From a virus, in IMG/VR virus record IMGVR_UViG_3300025154_000384, positions 1 through 23,920 of that record: a stretch of DNA of 23,920 nucleotides. One strand, 5' to 3'. Positions within the stretch are counted from its first letter, which is position 1, and the number at the start of each line of letters is the position of its first letter. The notes beneath the pieces are model-generated. The model had not been told where the DNA came from. It did not search any database and saw only the letters and a list, made by a program, of their open reading frames with translations. Made by a program: the position numbers and the translations under genes. Shown one piece after another: positions 6,576 to 23,414 of the stretch.

Positions 6576-6584
6576 ATTATATCA
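6576..6584 (-). promoter_or_regulatory. Extended -10 promoter upstream of portal
   Basis: On the minus strand TGATATAAT lies at 6584-6576, and transcription would start at about 6568-6570, virtually on the portal ATG. If real it makes a leaderless portal mRNA. A TTGACT lies too close (11 nt) to act as its -35. The identical nonamer precedes the replication gene leader and the structured RNA. Confidence 0.4.
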
Positions 6585-6604: not shown

Positions 6605-7018
6605 TTATTTTAATCTAATCATTGCTTCTGAATGCTTAATTATCCCACCATAACGAGAACTTGCCAATTCACTGGCCAAGGCAAATTTAATTTTAGCAAG
6701 CTTGTTTCTATCTTTGTATGCCTTTTTACAAAAATCAAATTGGGCTTGAAAAGCAAGTAGCTCTTCGTTAAGACGAAAATCAATATCAGTTAAATATCTT
6801 TCCCACCATCGTTCGGCTTGTCGTTCATTCATTCCTTGTCTTTGACAATGAGTCAATTCGTGAGCCAGTAAATCTTTACTCATTCCTTTGGCTGGACAAT
6901 AAATTTTGTTTCCATAAGCGACTATAACTTCATCTTCCAAAACGCCAAAACGTTCCTTGAGAATAGCAAGATTCGGCGCTTCGGCAATGGGTTTAATTTG
7001 TAATTTACCTTCTTTCAT
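6605..7018 (-). CDS. HExxH zinc metallopeptidase-like protein
   Basis: The start at 7018 gives 137 aa (MKEGKLQIKPIAEAPNL) and overlaps the TerL stop by 14 nt. An upstream in-frame ATG at 7063 would add 15 residues lying wholly inside TerL. The core motif is LLAHELTHCQRQGM, a HExxH zinc site, followed by a helix with RLNEELLAFQAQFDFCKK that may supply a third ligand (Glu), as in small gluzincins. Genes of this kind recur near terminase/portal in environmental phages. It could be a head-maturation protease or a remnant fold without activity. There is no signal peptide, so it acts inside the cell. Confidence 0.6.
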   Translation of the reverse strand: MKEGKLQIKPIAEAPNLAILKERFGVLEDEVIVAYGNKIYCPAKGMSKDLLAHELTHCQRQGMNERQAERWWERYLTDIDFRLNEELLAFQAQFDFCKKAYKDRNKLAKIKFALASELASSRYGGIIKHSEAMIRLK

Positions 7019-9380
7019 AACCTCTAAAATTAGGAATGCTGACAATAACACTGGGTTGCCCAAGAGTTTCCCGATTATAAAATGTCAGTGAAAGCGCGTC
7101 AGCGACATCGGGCGATAAAACGCCATCTTTCAACATCTCATCTTTACCTTTTATCTTAACCCGTCTGTCGCTTTGAATCTTATATTTAACATCTAACAAA
7201 TCCTGCCAGCCGTTGCCTTCAAGTTCCGAAGTTGCCAACCATTCTCGCAACCGCCAAAACATTTCAGCTCTTTTGTTAAAATAACTGGCATCTTCATCAG
7301 CTTTTTCACCGGCTACGACACCGACAACTCTGTCGGCAATTTCTTCAAACTCTTTCAATCTATCAAATACGGGTTTTCCTATACCAACTTTATCTATATA
7401 GATTTTGCTCGGCGCCGATTCACTGGCCAATGCCGCGATAATACCGGCGAAATTCATCGTGTCAGGATTGTGTTCTTTGTATAAAATCTTCGCTCCATTT
7501 TTAGCTCTTAAAGTTATTACCGAATAATTTGAACCTTCACCAGCGACATCACAACCCATTTTTAACTCTCCAAACAGTTTAATTTTAGGTTTAATCTTTC
7601 GCGCCAAAGTATCATCGTCCACAAGAATCGAATATCCGCTTGCGTCAATGGCGTCAGCGCTGGGAAAATTACATTCAAACAAAACACCAAAATAAGGTTT
7701 CATTTTTGCTTCATCTATAAATTCCTCCGTATATCTTCCTTCTTTAATTCCCTGCTTGTAATCCACAAGAATTTTGTGATAAGTCTCATCTCGCCAACTT
7801 TTAAGAAAGTGATTGCGATAAAATGGATTGCCGATTTTACAATAAAAAGCTTCTTCACCTTTACCGGCTATCATCCGGAACACGGTAGCTTCAATTGGAT
7901 CGGGGATTAAACAACTTTCGTCTTGGATTACATTTTTCGCCCCCGCTCCCATAGCCGCTTCAATTCCCTTTTTAGAATTACCAGCTTGAACGGAAATAAC
8001 GAATATGCCACCGCCATTCCGCAAAATAATTCTTTCCTTGCTTTCTTCCATTCGTAATCTTTCAAGTTTTGTATCTTTTTCCAATTGGGAATAAAACAAA
8101 GGCGAGTCTCCCAAATGCTCAATGTAATACCTCATTATTATCCTTGCTTTCTCGTTCGTTGGCGCCACCACGGCCACAAGTTCTTTTTGAATACAAGTGA
8201 TGACGACACAAGCTAAAGCGACTATAAAAGAATTATGAGTTGGTATCATTTGCTCGCCTACTAAATAAATTCCACCATCAACTTGAATACAATTACCTGA
8301 AACTGGTTCAATTTCTCTTATTTCTCTAATCCTTACGCGCCGTTTATTCGGTTGTATAGTTATCTTTTTTCTTAAAACTCTAGTAGGAATATCTAATATA
8401 GGCTTAAACCCTATATAATATGTATCTTTTCTTCCTTGAATACCGCTTGAAGAAATACACGCCTTCACTTTTGTAATACTTGGCTTCATTCCCAAAGAAC
8501 GAATCAAATCACACACATCATCAATAAGACGCTTATTTGTATTGATAAAATAAACACGCCCATTTCGCCACCCTTTCTCCCGTTTTTGTTTATTTACACT
8601 ACCGTCTGTATCAATAAGTCCAGCTAATAATTGCAAACGAGATTGTATGCTAGCTAATTTATATACATCCGGGATATGTTTGTTTCCTATTAAATCAAGC
8701 TGTCGTAATGATTGAAAAACAACTGTTTTGTAAAAACCGTATAAGACAACTCCTGTATCCTTGTGAGGATGTTCTGTGGATATTTTGTAAGGAATCGCAG
8801 AAACGATATTTCTGTCCTTTGGGTCAATAGTTATTGCAGGTTTGGTAGATATGCCATCGCCAAGCCAAACTCCAAGAGTATATGAATCTAATAGTAATCC
8901 CTTATCGTTGCCCTCTAATGGCACAATGTTTGGTATAGAAAATGATGACTTCTCATATTCAGCAATATATTTCGTCTCTATTTTCCTATAATCTTTCCAC
9001 GCCCTATGTTGCGCAAACCATTCGTGTTTCTCGTGGACTTTTATTTTTGCTCCATTTGTGAAAATAACTTCTCTATTCGCTATCCCTTTCGGAGCAATAC
9101 CTTTAACTTTAACTGCCTTGCCAAAATGATTAAACACATAATCCCCTATCTTGAGGTCGCCATGATTTTTCCACCCTTTCGTTGTCCACACTGGTGTATC
9201 ATCACTTACCAGTTTTCCGTATTGAGTCGCGCAAAGAATTTGAAGCCTTTTATGTTTTCTGAATATCAACTCGTAAAATATCTGTATCTGACTTTCGGTC
9301 ACAATTTGGTCGGCAGTTTTATTTTCAAATCTAAAAAGTTTCAAAAGTCCCAAACACACTTCTCTTTCTTTAGGATTCAT
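7005..9380 (-). CDS. terL: Terminase large subunit containing an intein
   Basis: The precursor is 791 aa. The N-extein ends ...CATQYGK (residue 56) and the C-extein resumes SFIVALACVV (residue 384), so joining restores the Walker A loop ATQYGKS. After it come Walker B (NVIQDES) and the RNase H-like nuclease with its acidic residues (GCDVAGEGSNYSV, IYIDKVGIGKPVFD, SPDVADALSLTF). The spliced protein is about 464 aa, normal for TerL. TerL packages and cuts phage DNA at the portal. The start overlaps the upstream small-terminase-like gene by 11 nt and its end overlaps the HExxH gene. Without splicing the ATPase would be dead, because the intein sits between the Walker A Lys and Ser. Confidence 0.92.
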   Translation of the reverse strand: MNPKEREVCLGLLKLFRFENKTADQIVTESQIQIFYELIFRKHKRLQILCATQYGKLVSDDTPVWTTKGWKNHGDLKIGDYVFNHFGKAVKVKGIAPKGIANREVIFTNGAKIKVHEKHEWFAQHRAWKDYRKIETKYIAEYEKSSFSIPNIVPLEGNDKGLLLDSYTLGVWLGDGISTKPAITIDPKDRNIVSAIPYKISTEHPHKDTGVVLYGFYKTVVFQSLRQLDLIGNKHIPDVYKLASIQSRLQLLAGLIDTDGSVNKQKREKGWRNGRVYFINTNKRLIDDVCDLIRSLGMKPSITKVKACISSSGIQGRKDTYYIGFKPILDIPTRVLRKKITIQPNKRRVRIREIREIEPVSGNCIQVDGGIYLVGEQMIPTHNSFIVALACVVITCIQKELVAVVAPTNEKARIIMRYYIEHLGDSPLFYSQLEKDTKLERLRMEESKERIILRNGGGIFVISVQAGNSKKGIEAAMGAGAKNVIQDESCLIPDPIEATVFRMIAGKGEEAFYCKIGNPFYRNHFLKSWRDETYHKILVDYKQGIKEGRYTEEFIDEAKMKPYFGVLFECNFPSADAIDASGYSILVDDDTLARKIKPKIKLFGELKMGCDVAGEGSNYSVITLRAKNGAKILYKEHNPDTMNFAGIIAALASESAPSKIYIDKVGIGKPVFDRLKEFEEIADRVVGVVAGEKADEDASYFNKRAEMFWRLREWLATSELEGNGWQDLLDVKYKIQSDRRVKIKGKDEMLKDGVLSPDVADALSLTFYNRETLGQPSVIVSIPNFRGYERR
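8232..9212 (-). mobile_element. LAGLIDADG intein in TerL, class 3 signature
   Basis: A 327-residue in-frame insertion. It starts LVSDDTPVWTTKGWK (block A, but with Leu at position 1 instead of Cys or Ser) and ends VGEQMIPTHN followed by Ser. Endonuclease blocks are LGVWLGDGIS (about 113-122) and LLAGLIDTDGSV (about 195-206). The class 3 residues are all present: Trp65 two positions after the block B His (KHEW), Cys308 in block F (GNCIQV), Thr325 in block G (PTHN). In class 3 inteins the block F Cys starts splicing, which explains the missing N-terminal nucleophile. The block B Thr of the TxxH motif is His here (HEKH). Endonuclease motifs look intact, so it may still home. Confidence 0.88.
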
Positions 9381-10155: not shown

Positions 10156-10341
10156 TTACGTTCGCTTAAAAGTTCTAATAAATGAATTTTTATGCTTTTC
10201 CAAAAGAAATTTGATTTCTTTTTCACTCATCCCCAATTGTCTCCACTTATCCCGCTTCACGACCTTCCATTTTGCGAGAGATTCATTTTTCTCTTTCAAA
10301 ATCCTAAAAGCTTTTATAAGTTTTATAAAAAATCTAATCAC
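10156..10341 (-). CDS. Hypothetical basic helical protein (61 aa), GTG start
   Basis: It starts with GTG at 10339-10341, overlapping the chaperonin stop (AGTGATTAG) by 8 nt, which indicates coupled translation. It begins MIRFFIKLIKAFRILKEKNE, an amphipathic basic helix, followed by KRDKWRQLGMSEKEIKFLLE, which resembles a short helix-turn-helix-like or protein-binding unit. The whole protein is strongly basic. It is not a GroES: length and sequence differ from the co-chaperonin beta-barrel. Function unknown. Confidence 0.5.
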   Translation of the reverse strand: MIRFFIKLIKAFRILKEKNESLAKWKVVKRDKWRQLGMSEKEIKFLLEKHKNSFIRTFKRT

Positions 10342-12055
10342 TTAATTCTTTGTTAATAAGCGCTTCTTGTTTTTGAAGTTCCTCCGCATTTGTTTCATCC
10401 ATTCCTTCTTTGAAAAGAGCTTTATCTTTGGCAAAGAAATAAGTGTATTGTTTGATTGCATCGGCTATAAGTTTATATGGGTCTTTGGGGTCGCGTTCAT
10501 CAAACTCCGGTATTACCGCTTTGACAGTAATAAGATTGGCAGCAACTCCAAAACCGTGTTCCACCTCCAATTCTACCACACGGGCGGGGTCTATAATATC
10601 TTTACCGATTTTTAATTCACTGCCACAGTTTTCTTGAATCTGATTAAACGGCGCGCAAAGAGCGCCGTGAATTAAAACATCATCTTTGAAAAGCTCATCA
10701 GCAATTTCTTTCAAACACAACCCCCCGCCTTTTACATATCCATTTCGTAAAGCGTTTTGTCCGGCGAAAATAGCATCTTCAATTTTATGTTTCAGTGGTA
10801 ATGCTTCCGCATCTGTTGAAGCTCCAACTTTAATCATACCCCCAGCCGAAGACATTGAAGCAATGCGTTTTTGGATTAAAGCTTTGTGTTCCGGCATTTT
10901 CGTTAAATTCACTCTGCTTTTCAAATCCTCAATATGTTTTTTTATTTTCTCGCTTCTCACTCCTTTTCCGCCCAAGATTACAGCATCTTCTCTGTCTTCC
11001 ACGCTTTTGACAGTCAGTTTTTCCACAAAACCCAAATCATACTCTTTGATATCTTTCAATTTATCGCCTTTGTCTTTATCAATGAACCGAGCATCGCAAA
11101 ACAAAGCAAGATCAACAAAATTATGGGGAGTTAAATCCGCCGAACCAAGAGAAGGACATTTAACTGGGAATATCTGAATTCCCGAAGGTTGAGTTTGTCC
11201 ATTCGGTAATAAGCGAGGTTGTATCAGTTTTACCATCTGAACCAAAACCTCATCAGAAAAATTAGGCGCAAAAATAACTAGCTTATTTACTTTTATATTA
11301 TTCCAAAAATCAGCAAAATCCCGAATAGAATCAATTTTGTAATTCGTTACCAATACTAAAGATTCTTCTACCACCATTTCATAGCGTTCAGGATGATTAA
11401 GAAAAACCGGAGCGACAATTTTCATAGGAAATCTAGCGCCTTCAATAACCTCGGTTTCTAATTTACCTTGAAAACCATCAGCGAGAGTAATAAATCCATC
11501 TTCACCGGTTTTCCACACTATTTCCGCTAAAATTTTTGCCACTTCTCTGTTGCCGGCCAAAGAAACATCAATGATATCTTCAAGTTCTTTAATAGTCTTG
11601 ATTTTTTTGGTTCGTTCTTTAATTGCTTCTTTAATCTTTGGAACACAAGAAATTATATGTTTTCGTAAAGAATTTACCCCACCAAAATTTGAATCAAGCC
11701 CCCTTATTTCAGTATTATTTTTATCGCTTAATCGTGAAAAAGCGTCGTTGATAAGTTTGGCTGAAATGCTGATTGTGCTAGTTGTGCCATCGCCAACTCG
11801 TTCTCCAGTCTTACTTGCGCCTTCAATAAAAGCCCTTGCGATTAAATTTTCAAATTCATCTTTGGGAACAATGTTTTTAGCAACAGTTACGCCATCATTA
11901 GTAATTCTTGAACCGCGATTAAAACTTCTATCCAACAGAACCCCCGCCCCTTCGGGGCCAAGAGTAAGTTTCACCGCATCAGCGACTTTATTCACAGCTT
12001 TCAAAATGACTTTCCGCGCCTCACCGTGTAGTTTTTGTTCAGTTTTTCTGCTCAT
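10334..12055 (-). CDS. groL: Phage-encoded GroEL-type chaperonin (Cpn60)
   Basis: I start it at 12055 (MSRKTEQKLHGEARKVI), giving 573 aa; the longer start at 12115 has no support from the fold. Group I chaperonin landmarks are all visible: VKLTLGPEGAGVLLD (29-42), ITNDGVTVAKNI with Asp54, the nucleotide loop GDGTTS (88-93), the apical region ETEVIEGARFP, KVGASTDAEA (409-418), KIEDAIFAG with Asp427 (equivalent to the GroEL ATPase Asp398), GGGLCLKEIA (443-452), and DPYKLIADAI near the end. ATP-binding and hydrolysis residues are kept, so it should be active. The GGM tail is absent, and the apical domain around 280-330 is diverged. No groES gene is visible. Position just before the head genes suggests it folds capsid or other virion proteins. 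Confidence 0.93.
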   Translation of the reverse strand: MSRKTEQKLHGEARKVILKAVNKVADAVKLTLGPEGAGVLLDRSFNRGSRITNDGVTVAKNIVPKDEFENLIARAFIEGASKTGERVGDGTTSTISISAKLINDAFSRLSDKNNTEIRGLDSNFGGVNSLRKHIISCVPKIKEAIKERTKKIKTIKELEDIIDVSLAGNREVAKILAEIVWKTGEDGFITLADGFQGKLETEVIEGARFPMKIVAPVFLNHPERYEMVVEESLVLVTNYKIDSIRDFADFWNNIKVNKLVIFAPNFSDEVLVQMVKLIQPRLLPNGQTQPSGIQIFPVKCPSLGSADLTPHNFVDLALFCDARFIDKDKGDKLKDIKEYDLGFVEKLTVKSVEDREDAVILGGKGVRSEKIKKHIEDLKSRVNLTKMPEHKALIQKRIASMSSAGGMIKVGASTDAEALPLKHKIEDAIFAGQNALRNGYVKGGGLCLKEIADELFKDDVLIHGALCAPFNQIQENCGSELKIGKDIIDPARVVELEVEHGFGVAANLITVKAVIPEFDERDPKDPYKLIADAIKQYTYFFAKDKALFKEGMDETNAEELQKQEALINKELSD

Positions 12056-12191
12056 TTTTTCCTTGTTTATTAAAATAGCACTCTCTACACCTCCACTCCT
12101 TCTCCAATGTTTCAAATCTTAATTCACAGTCCATCTTATCACATTTGGCGCATTTTTTCCAATTCGGTATTTCAGTTGGTATTTCGGTCAT
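12039..12191 (-). CDS. Mini zinc-ribbon protein (50 aa)
   Basis: The best start is the ATG at 12189-12191, forming an ATGA overlap with the stop of the gene ending at 12188; a start at 12260 would overlap that gene by 73 nt. The product holds two Cys pairs, KKCAKCDKMDC and WRCRECYFN, making one zinc ribbon. It overlaps the chaperonin start by 17 nt. Small zinc ribbons bind nucleic acid or proteins; nothing more specific can be said. Confidence 0.6.
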   Translation of the reverse strand: MTEIPTEIPNWKKCAKCDKMDCELRFETLEKEWRCRECYFNKQGKNEQKN

Positions 12192-20053: not shown

Positions 20054-20087
20054 AAAAACCACTTCTTAAATTAAGAAGTGGTTTTTT
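20054..20087 (+). terminator. Strong intrinsic terminator
   Basis: CCACTTCTTAA / TTAAGAAGTGG (extended by flanking AAAA/TTTT) makes a hairpin followed by TTTTTT, 22 nt after the secreted-protein stop. The A-run on the other side lets it work in both directions. Confidence 0.85.
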
Positions 20088-20463: not shown

Positions 20464-20614
20464 AGTAAATTTCCAATTCTGTTTGGTTATCCGGTTCGGC
20501 CGGTTGATGTTTTTCAGCGCAAACTTTTGAGCAGAAAAATGTCCCGTCCTCTTCTTGGATACAATCGGCAATCGTCATCGTTTTGCCGCAATTATCACAG
20601 CTTCCGAGATTGAT
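20453..20614 (-). CDS. Zinc-finger protein with non-AUG or damaged start
   Basis: The frame is limited by TAG at the Shine-Dalgarno and ends at TGA 20453-20455. It reads NLGSCDNCGKTMTIADCIQ, then DGTFFCSKVCAEKH: a treble-clef zinc finger that needs the first CDNC pair. The only ATG lies after that pair. An AGGAG lies 6 nt upstream of ATC (20612-20614), which may be the start (AUC) or a mutated ATG (ATGAATCTC vs ATCAATCTC). An intact ATGAATCTCGGAAG occurs 118 nt upstream. The gene is coupled to the next zinc-finger gene. Confidence 0.5.
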   Translation of the reverse strand: MNLGSCDNCGKTMTIADCIQEEDGTFFCSKVCAEKHQPAEPDNQTELEIYYDD

Positions 20615-20732
20615 ATAATTCTCCTATTTTTGATGGTTAAAATTGCGTTAGAAAGTTAGACAAGAAAAAGAAATGAACGATATTTTTTTTCCGCTTCTTG
20701 TCTAACTTTCACTATATCCTTCCGAGATTCAT
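20601..20732 (-). repeat. Imperfect 14-bp direct repeats flanking a 104-nt segment
   Basis: AT[C/G]AATCTCGGAAG occurs at 20614-20601 and 20732-20719 on the minus strand (one mismatch, in the start codon). Removal of one unit (118 nt) would fuse ATG AAT CTC GGA AG directly to the zinc-finger frame. The segment between contains a 16-bp inverted repeat. Confidence 0.55.
20651..20710 (-). repeat. Perfect 16-bp inverted repeat
   Basis: GAAAGTTAGACAAGAA (20651-20666) and TTCTTGTCTAACTTTC (20695-20710), 28-nt spacer. On the minus-strand RNA it forms a long stem in the leader of the zinc-finger genes, 40 nt before the Shine-Dalgarno. No T-run follows, so it is not a normal terminator. Confidence 0.7.
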
Positions 20733-20752
20733 AACAAAGAACTTTTGCCTAT

Positions 20753-20761
20753 ATTATAGCA
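20753..20761 (-). promoter_or_regulatory. Extended -10 promoter of the zinc-finger genes
   Basis: Minus strand TGCTATAAT at 20761-20753, start near 20746, 13 nt after the structured RNA ends. No convincing -35. It gives the zinc-finger genes a ~130-nt leader. Confidence 0.45.
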
Positions 20762-20773
20762 TTTTTTACTCTC

Positions 20774-20967
20774 TTTGTCCTCCCAGCGAGTCCGGTGGTT
20801 TAAGCCTTCTCTCGCAAGCTTCAGCGCACGCTACTAACCAACATAGTTAATTGTTGTTGGAGTTTGCCTCTACAGCCCAGCTCCGGCAACCTCATCCATT
20901 CGGACATACTTTGCCGACTGGCACCTTAACCCATAGCGCAGGGTTTATTCGGTCATGGGAGGACAAA
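20774..20967 (-). ncRNA. ~190-nt structured RNA, possible raiA-motif relative
   Basis: Ends pair as a 12-bp terminal stem, TGGGAGGACAAA (20956-20967) with TTTGTCCTCCCA (20774-20785). Inside, on the minus strand, are AACCC/GGGTT, GCC/GGC around AGTC, TCC/GGA around GAAT, GAGGTTGCC/GGCAAACTC, CCAAC/GTTGG, AGCG/CGCT and AAGC/GCTT hairpins, plus a possible long-range GTCCG/CGGAC contact. Local GC is higher than in the surroundings and no frame is coding. A promoter at 20993-21022 drives it. The order of stems and segments such as GGGTTAAGGTGCC and GCTTGCGAGAGAAGGC remind me of the raiA motif RNA; this is from memory and unverified. Other options are a different large phage ncRNA class or a new one. 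Confidence 0.6.
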
Positions 20968-20992
20968 AAGAACAAATAATTATTATTGACTT

Positions 20993-21022
20993 ATTATATC
21001 ATTTTTCAACCACTGCCCGCAA
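20993..21022 (-). promoter_or_regulatory. Promoter of the structured RNA
   Basis: Minus strand: TTGCGG (21017-21022), 18 nt, TATAAT (20993-20998) preceded by TGA (extended -10). Start near 20986, about 20 nt before the RNA's terminal stem. The -35 lies inside the GC-rich hairpin of the adjoining inverted-repeat element. Confidence 0.55.
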
Positions 21023-21097
21023 TAGCGGGCGATGGTGAAAGTTTAGCATATATTGATAATGCTAACTGCTCCATTAAACGAGCAGTGGTTGAAAAAT
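21001..21097. repeat. 97-bp cruciform-like element with 16-bp arms
   Basis: Outer arms ATTTTTCAACCACTGC (21001-21016) and GCAGTGGTTGAAAAAT (21082-21097) are a perfect inverted repeat. Between them: GCCCGC-AATA-GCGGGC (21015-21030) and TTAGCAT/ATGCTAA (21043-21065). ACTGCTC (21065-21071) can also pair with GAGCAGT (21080-21086), competing with the outer arm. It spans from the transglycosylase-like stop codon to the structured-RNA promoter. Confidence 0.65.
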
Positions 21098-21507
21098 TAT
21101 TTTCTATAACAAACCCAAGGCGCAAATCCAAAGCGGTCATACAAAATTCTCGCCATTCCAAAATTACCTTCAATGGTGTGAATATCAAGTCCAAGTTTTT
21201 CAGCTTCTTTTTCCCAAACCAAACTGCGAAGTTGGAAAAAACCTAAATCAAAACCATCGGGGCCTTTAACGATTTTACCATTTATGGTTTGATTTTCTCC
21301 ACTCTCGCATTTGGCAATTTTACGCATAGTCACTTGAACTTCCGGTTCCGGAAAAAAGTTATTGTAGAGAATTTCTTTTTTAATCGGTTGAACTATTCCA
21401 TCAATCATCATACATTCTACAATTTTTCCGCTTTCAAGTCCGCACCACCAACCGGCGGTGGCGACAAAAGGCAAGGCAATTAACCCTACCAAGATTAAAT
21501 ACTTCAT
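21097..21507 (-). CDS. Secreted lysozyme/transglycosylase-like protein
   Basis: The 136-aa protein starts MKYLILVGLIALPFVATAGW, a signal peptide. The C-terminal ~75 residues form a small lysozyme-fold domain: MRKIAKCESGENQTINGKIV with the presumed catalytic Glu in CESG, DLGFFQLRSLVW, GLDIHTIEGNFGMARILYDR, ending PWVCYRK. This is the pattern of SLT/Rpf-like domains ('xxESGG...D.GLFQ...G.D...N...A..L....G..PW..S') frequent in Patescibacteria and their phages. It would cleave glycan strands outside the membrane, as an endolysin or host-wall remodelling enzyme. It ends the lysis operon at the cruciform-like element. Confidence 0.72.
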   Translation of the reverse strand: MKYLILVGLIALPFVATAGWWCGLESGKIVECMMIDGIVQPIKKEILYNNFFPEPEVQVTMRKIAKCESGENQTINGKIVKGPDGFDLGFFQLRSLVWEKEAEKLGLDIHTIEGNFGMARILYDRFGFAPWVCYRK

Positions 21508-21879: not shown

Positions 21880-22533
21880 TCAAGCGGTTTTTAGAACACC
21901 AAAATACTTCTTAACCCACATTATTATATCATCCAACGACATCACCTTTTTCAAGGCTTCAAAGACATTTTTCCAGTTTATTACAGGTTCCACTGTCTCA
22001 ATCGGCCCCATAACCTCATTTATTGCGTCAAAAACACCGTTTGCCGCTAGTTTCTGCCCCTCCTGCGTGATTATGAGGTTCCGCTCTTGAAAGTGCGTTA
22101 AATAGCAGGTTTCCACCAAAACACTGCGACAGGAAGTTATAAAACGAAGGAAACCAAGTGAACCGACATAGGTCTCGGAATCGTGTTTCGCCCCATTGTC
22201 GGGAATACCCAATCTTTTAGAAACACATCTGGAAAATATAGCCGCAATTCTTGGGTCGCTGACATAATACGCTTCAGTGCCTCTTTTTAATTGAGATTGA
22301 TTTGAATTCACATGAATTTCAATTGCCAAATCTTCGGGTTGTGGATTTTGAGAATTGATATAATCAATAGTTTCCCGTAAAGTCAAATCATCGGGAACAT
22401 AAATAGCTTCGGGTAAAAGTTCTTTTATCTTGTCTCTGATTTTTATTACCAATTCCGATTCGGCGATATTGCCCCAGCGAACGCCGGAATCTATTCTGCT
22501 ATGGCCTGCAGATATAAATACGCGAGGTTTCAT
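21880..22533 (-). CDS. N-acetylmuramoyl-L-alanine amidase (amidase_3)
   Basis: The protein has 217 aa. Zinc and catalytic positions of the amidase_3 fold are visible: ISAGHSRIDSG (His11), Glu25, IEIHVNSN (His74) and VLVETCYLTH (Glu141). It cleaves the bond between glycan and stem peptide. The catalytic domain fills residues 1-175; the last 40 residues (VEPVINWKNVFEALKKVMSL) are a helical tail. No signal peptide, so it needs the holin-like protein or another route to reach the wall. Starts in an ATGA overlap with the cysteine peptidase gene. The main endolysin of the cassette. Confidence 0.88.
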   Translation of the reverse strand: MKPRVFISAGHSRIDSGVRWGNIAESELVIKIRDKIKELLPEAIYVPDDLTLRETIDYINSQNPQPEDLAIEIHVNSNQSQLKRGTEAYYVSDPRIAAIFSRCVSKRLGIPDNGAKHDSETYVGSLGFLRFITSCRSVLVETCYLTHFQERNLIITQEGQKLAANGVFDAINEVMGPIETVEPVINWKNVFEALKKVMSLDDIIMWVKKYFGVLKTA

Positions 22534-23414
22534 TTTTTGAAAATATCTTTAATGAAAGCTAATAGCGACCTAATTATACCCCATACCCAATTTTCACCAA
22601 GTTGCCGCCCTGTGGACAAGTATTGTTCGGCTTCTTCCTTGTTCAAATCCAAAAGCATAAATGCCCCAAATTGTTTGACAAATTTTTCCACCACCCTCCA
22701 ATGGAAATAATGCGTGCCATTATAGCCGGCTTCTTTGCCGTAAGAGTTTTGAACTATAAAATATAATTCATTATCAATGTGTTTGTAGCCGATTATAAGC
22801 AAGGCGTGGCCGATGCCGGATTCTGGTATCGTGTTAATTTTAATTTCCTTAACATCCCAACCCCATTGAACGCCAAACAATACCGCCCGTTTTTCGTTGC
22901 GGAAATACCACAAAGCGGAACGGATATCGTTTGTAATAGTTTGTTGCCCGGATACTTCCCAATAAGTTTTTTTGCGATGAAAACCGGCGTAAAGTTTCAT
23001 TTCTAACGGCCAGTTTTTTATATCAGCCAGAAAATCTCTGTCTTTTGTTTCCACCGAAAATGGACTATTCTTTTTTTCAATCGCCCCGACTTGAATATGA
23101 GCTTTCAAGACATCGTAAAAAGACAAACCGAAACCTTGAATATCACCTGAGATTTCTTTGGCAGCGGCAAAAGTAAATTCAGGAGCAAGCAAAACGCTCT
23201 CCTGTAATTCCGAAGCGGTGGAACTGGAAAATGAAGCGCAAAAATCCGTGTCTTTTTGGTTTTTAATTTCCAATGTTTCAAGACAAAACTCATCTGGAGT
23301 CAAATCATAAGCAGGCAAGCTGACAATTCTGCCTAATTGCAGGTTACGAGGGTCTTTTTCTTTAAGTATCAATCCTCCTTTAATCATATTTTGTAGTTGT
23401 TGCCATTTTAACAT
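22530..23414 (-). CDS. Papain-like (C1A) cysteine peptidase
   Basis: The protein has 294 aa. Catalytic elements: NQKDTDFCASFSSSTASEL with Gln53 and Cys59, SGIGHALLIIGY with His203, and FIVQNSYGKEAG with Asn223, the complete papain-type triad plus oxyanion Gln. No signal peptide or propeptide. The last 30 residues are hydrophobic/helical (NWVWGIIRSLLAFIKDIF), perhaps a membrane anchor. Position between coiled-coil/membrane genes and the amidase suggests a role in lysis, virion penetration or processing of surface proteins. A second start at 23387 is possible. Enzymatic class is solid; the role is inferred. Confidence 0.85.
   Translation of the reverse strand: MLKWQQLQNMIKGGLILKEKDPRNLQLGRIVSLPAYDLTPDEFCLETLEIKNQKDTDFCASFSSSTASELQESVLLAPEFTFAAAKEISGDIQGFGLSFYDVLKAHIQVGAIEKKNSPFSVETKDRDFLADIKNWPLEMKLYAGFHRKKTYWEVSGQQTITNDIRSALWYFRNEKRAVLFGVQWGWDVKEIKINTIPESGIGHALLIIGYKHIDNELYFIVQNSYGKEAGYNGTHYFHWRVVEKFVKQFGAFMLLDLNKEEAEQYLSTGRQLGENWVWGIIRSLLAFIKDIFKK

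Follow-up and report, generated by a model that had tools for sequence, protein, structure and literature searches.

The manA RNA (RF01745) occurs in T4-like cyanophages and marine metagenomes. It was put forward as a 5' UTR element and riboswitch candidate (Weinberg et al, PMC2864571), a status that dates from 2010, and no later functional study of it was found in the literature searched. Directly inside the closing stem P1, true cyanophage manA RNAs have the order UG, 3-bp helix, GAAYA, helix AAC...GUU, AA, 3-bp helix and G. ROOL and GOLLD are structured phage-borne RNAs of unknown function, as is the RNA described here (RNA-1), but they are several times larger and gave no Rfam match. The phi29 pRNA resembles RNA-1 in being short, in having a promoter of its own and in pairing through a loop; in contrast, the RNA-1 phage has an ordinary large terminase gene, and phi29 pRNA is absent from the Rfam scan listings. 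The raiA RNA is known from Bacillota and other bacterial genomes and is not known from this kind of phage. A raiA pseudoknot of 7 bp pairs the loop of a 5' hairpin with a junction strand further on (PMC11751092).

RNA-1 lies in the IMG/VR virus record IMGVR_UViG_3300025154_000384, analysed over 23,920 bases (the window). Nearly all genes of the window are on the minus strand, including those for capsid, portal, terminase, chaperonin, a DnaB-like helicase, exonuclease and a lysis set, and RNA-1 is the middle one of three structures in a gene-free stretch between a lysozyme-like gene and two small cysteine-rich reading frames (Table 1). A search with the portal protein recovered related contigs, of which one (G001) is the same phage, 100% identical, and stops at window 20668 inside the flanking palindrome, while another (G003, 73%) ends before the RNA-1 region. 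The 43.6-kb contig G004 (61% identity in the portal and 94% in the capsid; portal search with two-sequence alignment) carries a homologue of RNA-1 in syntenic position, with lysozyme on one side and a small zinc-finger gene on the other. The order after its lysozyme gene is as in the window: a structure of long inverted repeats, then a structured stretch (~6841-6996), then a promoter with TATAAT, and finally the zinc-finger gene with a Shine-Dalgarno (SD) sequence. RNA-1 was accordingly compared between two independent sequences, the window and G004. Searches via peptidase, amidase, lysozyme and major capsid protein found no relatives beyond G001, G003/L003, G004 and the short contig L021, scans of genome contigs found no relative, and a nucleotide search of phage records with regions of both phages returned short chance matches only. 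The exact terminal-stem pattern occurs at four loci in viral contigs, all of them unrelated. Phage MW202577 was rejected as a relative, having a weak lysozyme match only and genes after lysozyme that run the opposite way. Judging from protein style, for example the GNVGIGTTSP repeats in G003, the hosts of the phages carrying RNA-1 may be Patescibacteria.

Table 1. Features of the RNA-1 region of the window, in the order of minus-strand transcription
Feature	Position	Strand	Remarks
Lysozyme-like gene	21097..21507	-	Upstream of RNA-1; synteny anchor; 45% identical to L017 6060-6503
Element 2, structured, four-way junction	20998..21100	-	Between lysozyme stop codon and RNA-1; kept in G004 (L017 6627-6804, +)
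Extended -10 promoter TGATATAAT	20993..21001	-	29 nt upstream of P1 core, aimed at RNA-1
RNA-1, structured noncoding RNA (P1, P1a, P2, P3, P4, P5, pseudoknot)	20776..20966	-	Fold z -4.1; G004 homologue with compensatory changes
P1 closing stem, 5' strand	20956..20976, core 20956-20964	-	
manA-like 5' module UG-ACC-GAAUA-AAC...GUU-AA-GGU-G	20921..20955	-	R2 model, PSSM, pair counts
P1a, 3-bp helix in manA-like module	20953-20951 with 20925-20923	-	Topped by GAAYA/AA internal loop, then hairpin P2
Hairpin P2	20928..20945	-	8-nt loop UGCGCUAU (20940-20933) is the pseudoknot 5' half
Hairpin P3	20877..20921	-	Predicted only; G004 equivalent shorter
Hairpin P4	20838..20860	-	Predicted only
Pseudoknot 3' half GUAGCGUG	20827..20834	-	Pairs with P2 loop
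Hairpin P5	20786..20815	-	Abuts P1 3' strand; in G004, both sides changed at 3 of 5 pairs
P1 closing stem, 3' strand	20765..20785, core 20777-20785	-	Its AGGACA doubles as -35 of the next promoter
Next promoter AGGACA-N17-TATAAT	20753..20781	-	Overlaps RNA-1 3' end in both phages
Long palindrome	20651..20710		Flanked by 15-nt direct repeat (20601-20615, 20719-20733)

The sequence-only reading had described a structured phage RNA of ~190 nt on the minus strand, with a terminal stem, raised GC, no coding frame, a promoter aimed at it and an inverted repeat on either side, and all of these features were recovered. The arms of the terminal inverted repeat (20761-20785 and 20956-20980) are 84% complementary over 25 nt, the GC content of the stretch is 52% compared to 38% in the window and 29% in the downstream flank, and no ORF >50 aa overlaps it. 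The minus strand folds with -76.9 kcal/mol (z -4.1) and the plus strand with z -5.0, none of 200 shuffles being as stable in either case; since both strands fold better than chance, thermodynamics alone does not pick the strand. Read on the minus strand, the helices of the window include six G-U pairs, of which three belong to the pseudoknot; the plus strand would have A-C in their place, which indicates the minus strand as that of the RNA. Instead of the at least six local hairpins counted initially, the supported model has four enclosed hairpins and a 3-bp helix.

Compensatory changes in G004 bear out both the RNA and its fold. Across 27 base pairs in five helices (P1 7 bp, P1a 3 bp, P2 5 bp, pseudoknot 7 bp and P5 5 bp), all standard in both phages, 15 are changed on both sides, one is changed on one side, 11 are the same and none is broken. 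The helices were compared by position because MAFFT applied to the whole RNA misplaces P2; the 5' block from the P1 5' strand to the end of the first domain is 42 nt long in both RNAs and aligns gap-free with 22 of 42 positions identical. The pseudoknot, which had been noted as possible, is now on firmer ground. All eight loop nucleotides of P2, the first hairpin, are able to pair with the strand just before P5, and G004 keeps the contact, pairing its P2 loop UCGCAACG with GUUGCGA where the window has UGCGCUAU and GUAGCGUG; six of the seven pairs are doubly and the seventh is singly changed. The duplex amounts to -8.8 kcal/mol in both phages against a cost of 3.9-4.9. A loop complement of that length, if the pseudoknot is taken alone, is not rare by shuffling in the window (P = 0.13), compared to P = 0.008 in G004, and it is the same position in both phages together with a sequence differing at nearly every pair that carries the weight of the pseudoknot evidence. 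At the level of sequence, the two-phage comparison supports P1, P1a, P2, the pseudoknot, P5 and the RNA strand, and we regard the structure of RNA-1 as well supported.

Rfam at gathering thresholds gave no match in the window, and for RNA-1 and element 2 neither the gathering nor the permissive scans yielded anything above cut-off, the microRNA, snoRNA and plastid hits being rejected as chance. In the permissive scan of the RNA-1 stretch with 4227 families, manA was the only family in register, with its 5' module only. The full model scores 8.6 bits (E 5.7) against a gathering threshold of 55.2, covers model positions 25-60 only and has no match in G004; taken alone, this match means nothing. 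However, the manA module order is present inside P1 of the window (UGACUGAAUAAAC...GUUAAGGUG). With the R2 module model, which was built only from 11 cyanophage manA modules and whose pairing (AAC/GUU and the third P1a pair) was revised after the window sequence had been seen, the window site ranks first in 91.5 kb, with 23.6 bits and E 0.0045 compared to 16.1 bits for the second; P-SSM7 (L034) supports this pairing within manA. An earlier module model with Rfam-like pairing gave E 0.053, and the best non-manA place in 74 kb of control sequence reached 13.6. A PSSM for the module scores 31.4 bits at the window site compared to 12.5 at the next best place of the window, with none of 20,000 shuffles as high, and 5.9 bits at the homologous position in G004 (P ~ 0.03). 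All six module pairs are standard (100%) in a comparison of manA, the window and G004, and three of them have changes on both sides, with P-SSM7 providing one inside manA.

In the P-SSM7 manA (L034 50-89) the second AAC/GUU pair has turned from A-U into U-A, a change on both sides that supports a helix absent from the Rfam structure of manA, where these bases are unpaired.

Outside the module the two RNAs share comparable overall length, a last hairpin placed against P1, an own extended -10 promoter ~30 nt upstream, and an upstream gene and terminator-like structure that precede the RNA. In contrast, the middle and 3' domain of RNA-1 cannot be aligned with manA, and its P2 is shorter, with the 8-nt loop forming the pseudoknot, whereas in manA the pseudoknot is formed between the loops of the final two hairpins (CUGUA/UACAG in cyanophages; GAGUA/UACUC in L042). 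No helix equivalent to the latter is in the dot-plot list of the window RNA, and the manA 3' domain (GUGGUG/ACCA, AAUGCCC) was not seen on inspection of the window and G004 RNAs. As the full model stays far under its cut-off and the remainder differs, we do not file RNA-1 as a manA member; the best reading is a variant with a shared module, that is a divergent cousin of manA.

RNA-1 might instead be a new class unrelated to manA, its GAAYA/AA module being a small three-dimensional motif reached by convergence. The end of the likeness after the 5' module, the score of the full covariance model far under cut-off and the lack of matches to the module models (first and revised) in G004 all speak for such a class, and the blind P-value, corrected for 4227 families, is ~0.1. 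However, ~22 of 23 bases on either side of P2 agree with manA and lie in the same register relative to P1, and the distance from promoter to module is similar (37 nt in the window and 32 nt in L026); register and strand regain much of what the correction for 4227 families costs. We consider an unrelated class rather unlikely, and note that it would be compatible with an RNA acting in trans. The manA kinship of RNA-1 is fairly supported: its 5' module is probably homologous to the cyanophage manA 5' module, as far as these scores and pair counts allow, while the 3' domain differs.

The sequence TGnTATAAT occurs nine times on the coding strand of the window, the RNA-1 promoter being one of them, versus twice on the other strand, and the copy at 6584 (TATAATATAGGC) is followed by the portal start codon. 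In G004 the RNA-1 promoter is weaker (TGTGATAAG). The spacing of the next promoter is kept there (-10 at L017 7014-7019) and an SD sequence and ATG follow. Since this promoter starts after RNA-1, transcripts from it would come without RNA-1, which weakens the case for a leader and strengthens that for a separate RNA. The alternative is that RNA-1 works in cis, as a leader or intercistronic element in late transcripts reading through from lysozyme to the zinc-finger gene, with riboswitch-like control of the downstream early genes. It draws on the role proposed for manA, on the position of RNA-1 between genes of the same strand and on the absence of an intrinsic terminator after RNA-1 on the minus strand. 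The conserved second promoter, which leads to an SD sequence and ATG in G004, argues against RNA-1 as the leader of that gene, and the next feature after a cyanophage manA can be a tRNA (L032) or an antisense gene (L028). On balance, control in cis seems unlikely.

All eight cyanophage manA loci with upstream sequence (L026-L033) have a near-consensus promoter, TTGACA-N16/17-(T/C)ATANT, directly upstream, the TTGACA mostly sitting inside a terminator-like repeat and being followed by TGnTATAAT or a close form. With the promoter directly before the RNA, manA may be a stand-alone RNA rather than a 5' UTR element; the loci fit a separately transcribed RNA better than a riboswitch, both being possible.

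For RNA-1 we slightly favour a separate small transcription unit, probably trans-acting, with the 5' module as the site of partner contact. RNA polymerase would start at the extended -10 promoter, at a predicted start site, and produce a minus-strand RNA of ~190-220 nt. In the predicted fold, P1 would close around P1a with its GAAYA/AA internal loop and P2, followed by P3, P4 and P5, the last stacked on P1. Pairing of the P2 loop with the strand between P4 and P5 would tie the 5' module to the 3' half and hold it there. The stable structured RNA would then act in trans, its conserved 5' module presumably binding a host or phage partner. More tentatively, RNA-1 and cyanophage manA could be two branches of an old family of promoter-driven, trans-acting phage RNAs in very distant hosts that kept one recognition module and swapped the rest, which would make manA a stand-alone RNA and not a riboswitch. 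The occurrence of a divergent manA relative in phages of quite another group, combined with a promoter before every cyanophage manA locus checked, suggests separate phage products, and narrows the part worth study to the ~35-nt module. If the structure holds in more relatives, RNA-1 would be a pseudoknotted RNA supported by covariation, from phages whose hosts may be Patescibacteria and for which the literature searched offered no described phage RNA.

It is very improbable that the inverted repeats work as DNA, for example as an origin, packaging or recombination site with an incidental RNA fold: several palindromes do share the intergenic region and one contig breaks there, but compensatory changes affect local hairpins as well as a pseudoknot with G-U pairs, and a promoter lies on the same strand as RNA-1, all of which points to RNA. 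Least credible of all is a raiA RNA or raiA mimic, the kinship first suggested for this locus, which we reject: neither the dedicated RF03072 search (cut-off 101.3 bits) of the window and G004 nor the permissive scan of the RNA-1 stretch, which did not list ROOL or GOLLD either, returned raiA at E <= 10. A loose topological likeness consists of a length of ~200 nt, a closing stem, and a 7-bp pseudoknot between the loop of a 5' hairpin and a junction strand further on. Features of raiA are P1-P8, pk-1, pk-2 and highly conserved noncanonical junctions, and RNA-1 has a pk-1-like contact of 7-8 bp.

Both neighbouring structures have features of their own. Element 2 folds with z -8.3 and -6.5 in the two phages, which have AUUAUCAAU and ACUUUCAC in common, and one of its stems is paired in both with different sequence (AGUUAGCAU/AUGCUAAACU and AGUAUUA/UAAUACU); it has no Rfam match. 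The 15-nt direct repeat that flanks the long palindrome (window 20601-20733) includes what looks like the beginning of a cysteine-rich reading frame, as though this gene had been interrupted by a small palindromic insert. In G004 the palindrome was not found and the gene is without such an insert. A symmetric terminator-like hairpin at window 20054-20086, between a plus-strand reading frame for a secreted protein and the minus-strand genes, is probably a bidirectional terminator.

The genome holds further observations apart from RNA-1. A papain-like cysteine peptidase (Peptidase_C1, window 22530-23414, minus strand), unusual for a phage, adjoins the amidase in the lysis region. The terminase large subunit (window 7005-9380, minus strand) has a LAGLIDADG-type intein inside, and the match with the G004 terminase is confined to the portion downstream of the intein. 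The phage also encodes a GroEL-like chaperonin (window 10334-12115, minus strand), which scores well under the NCBIfam GroEL cut-offs and is retained in G003 (76%) and G004 (67%).
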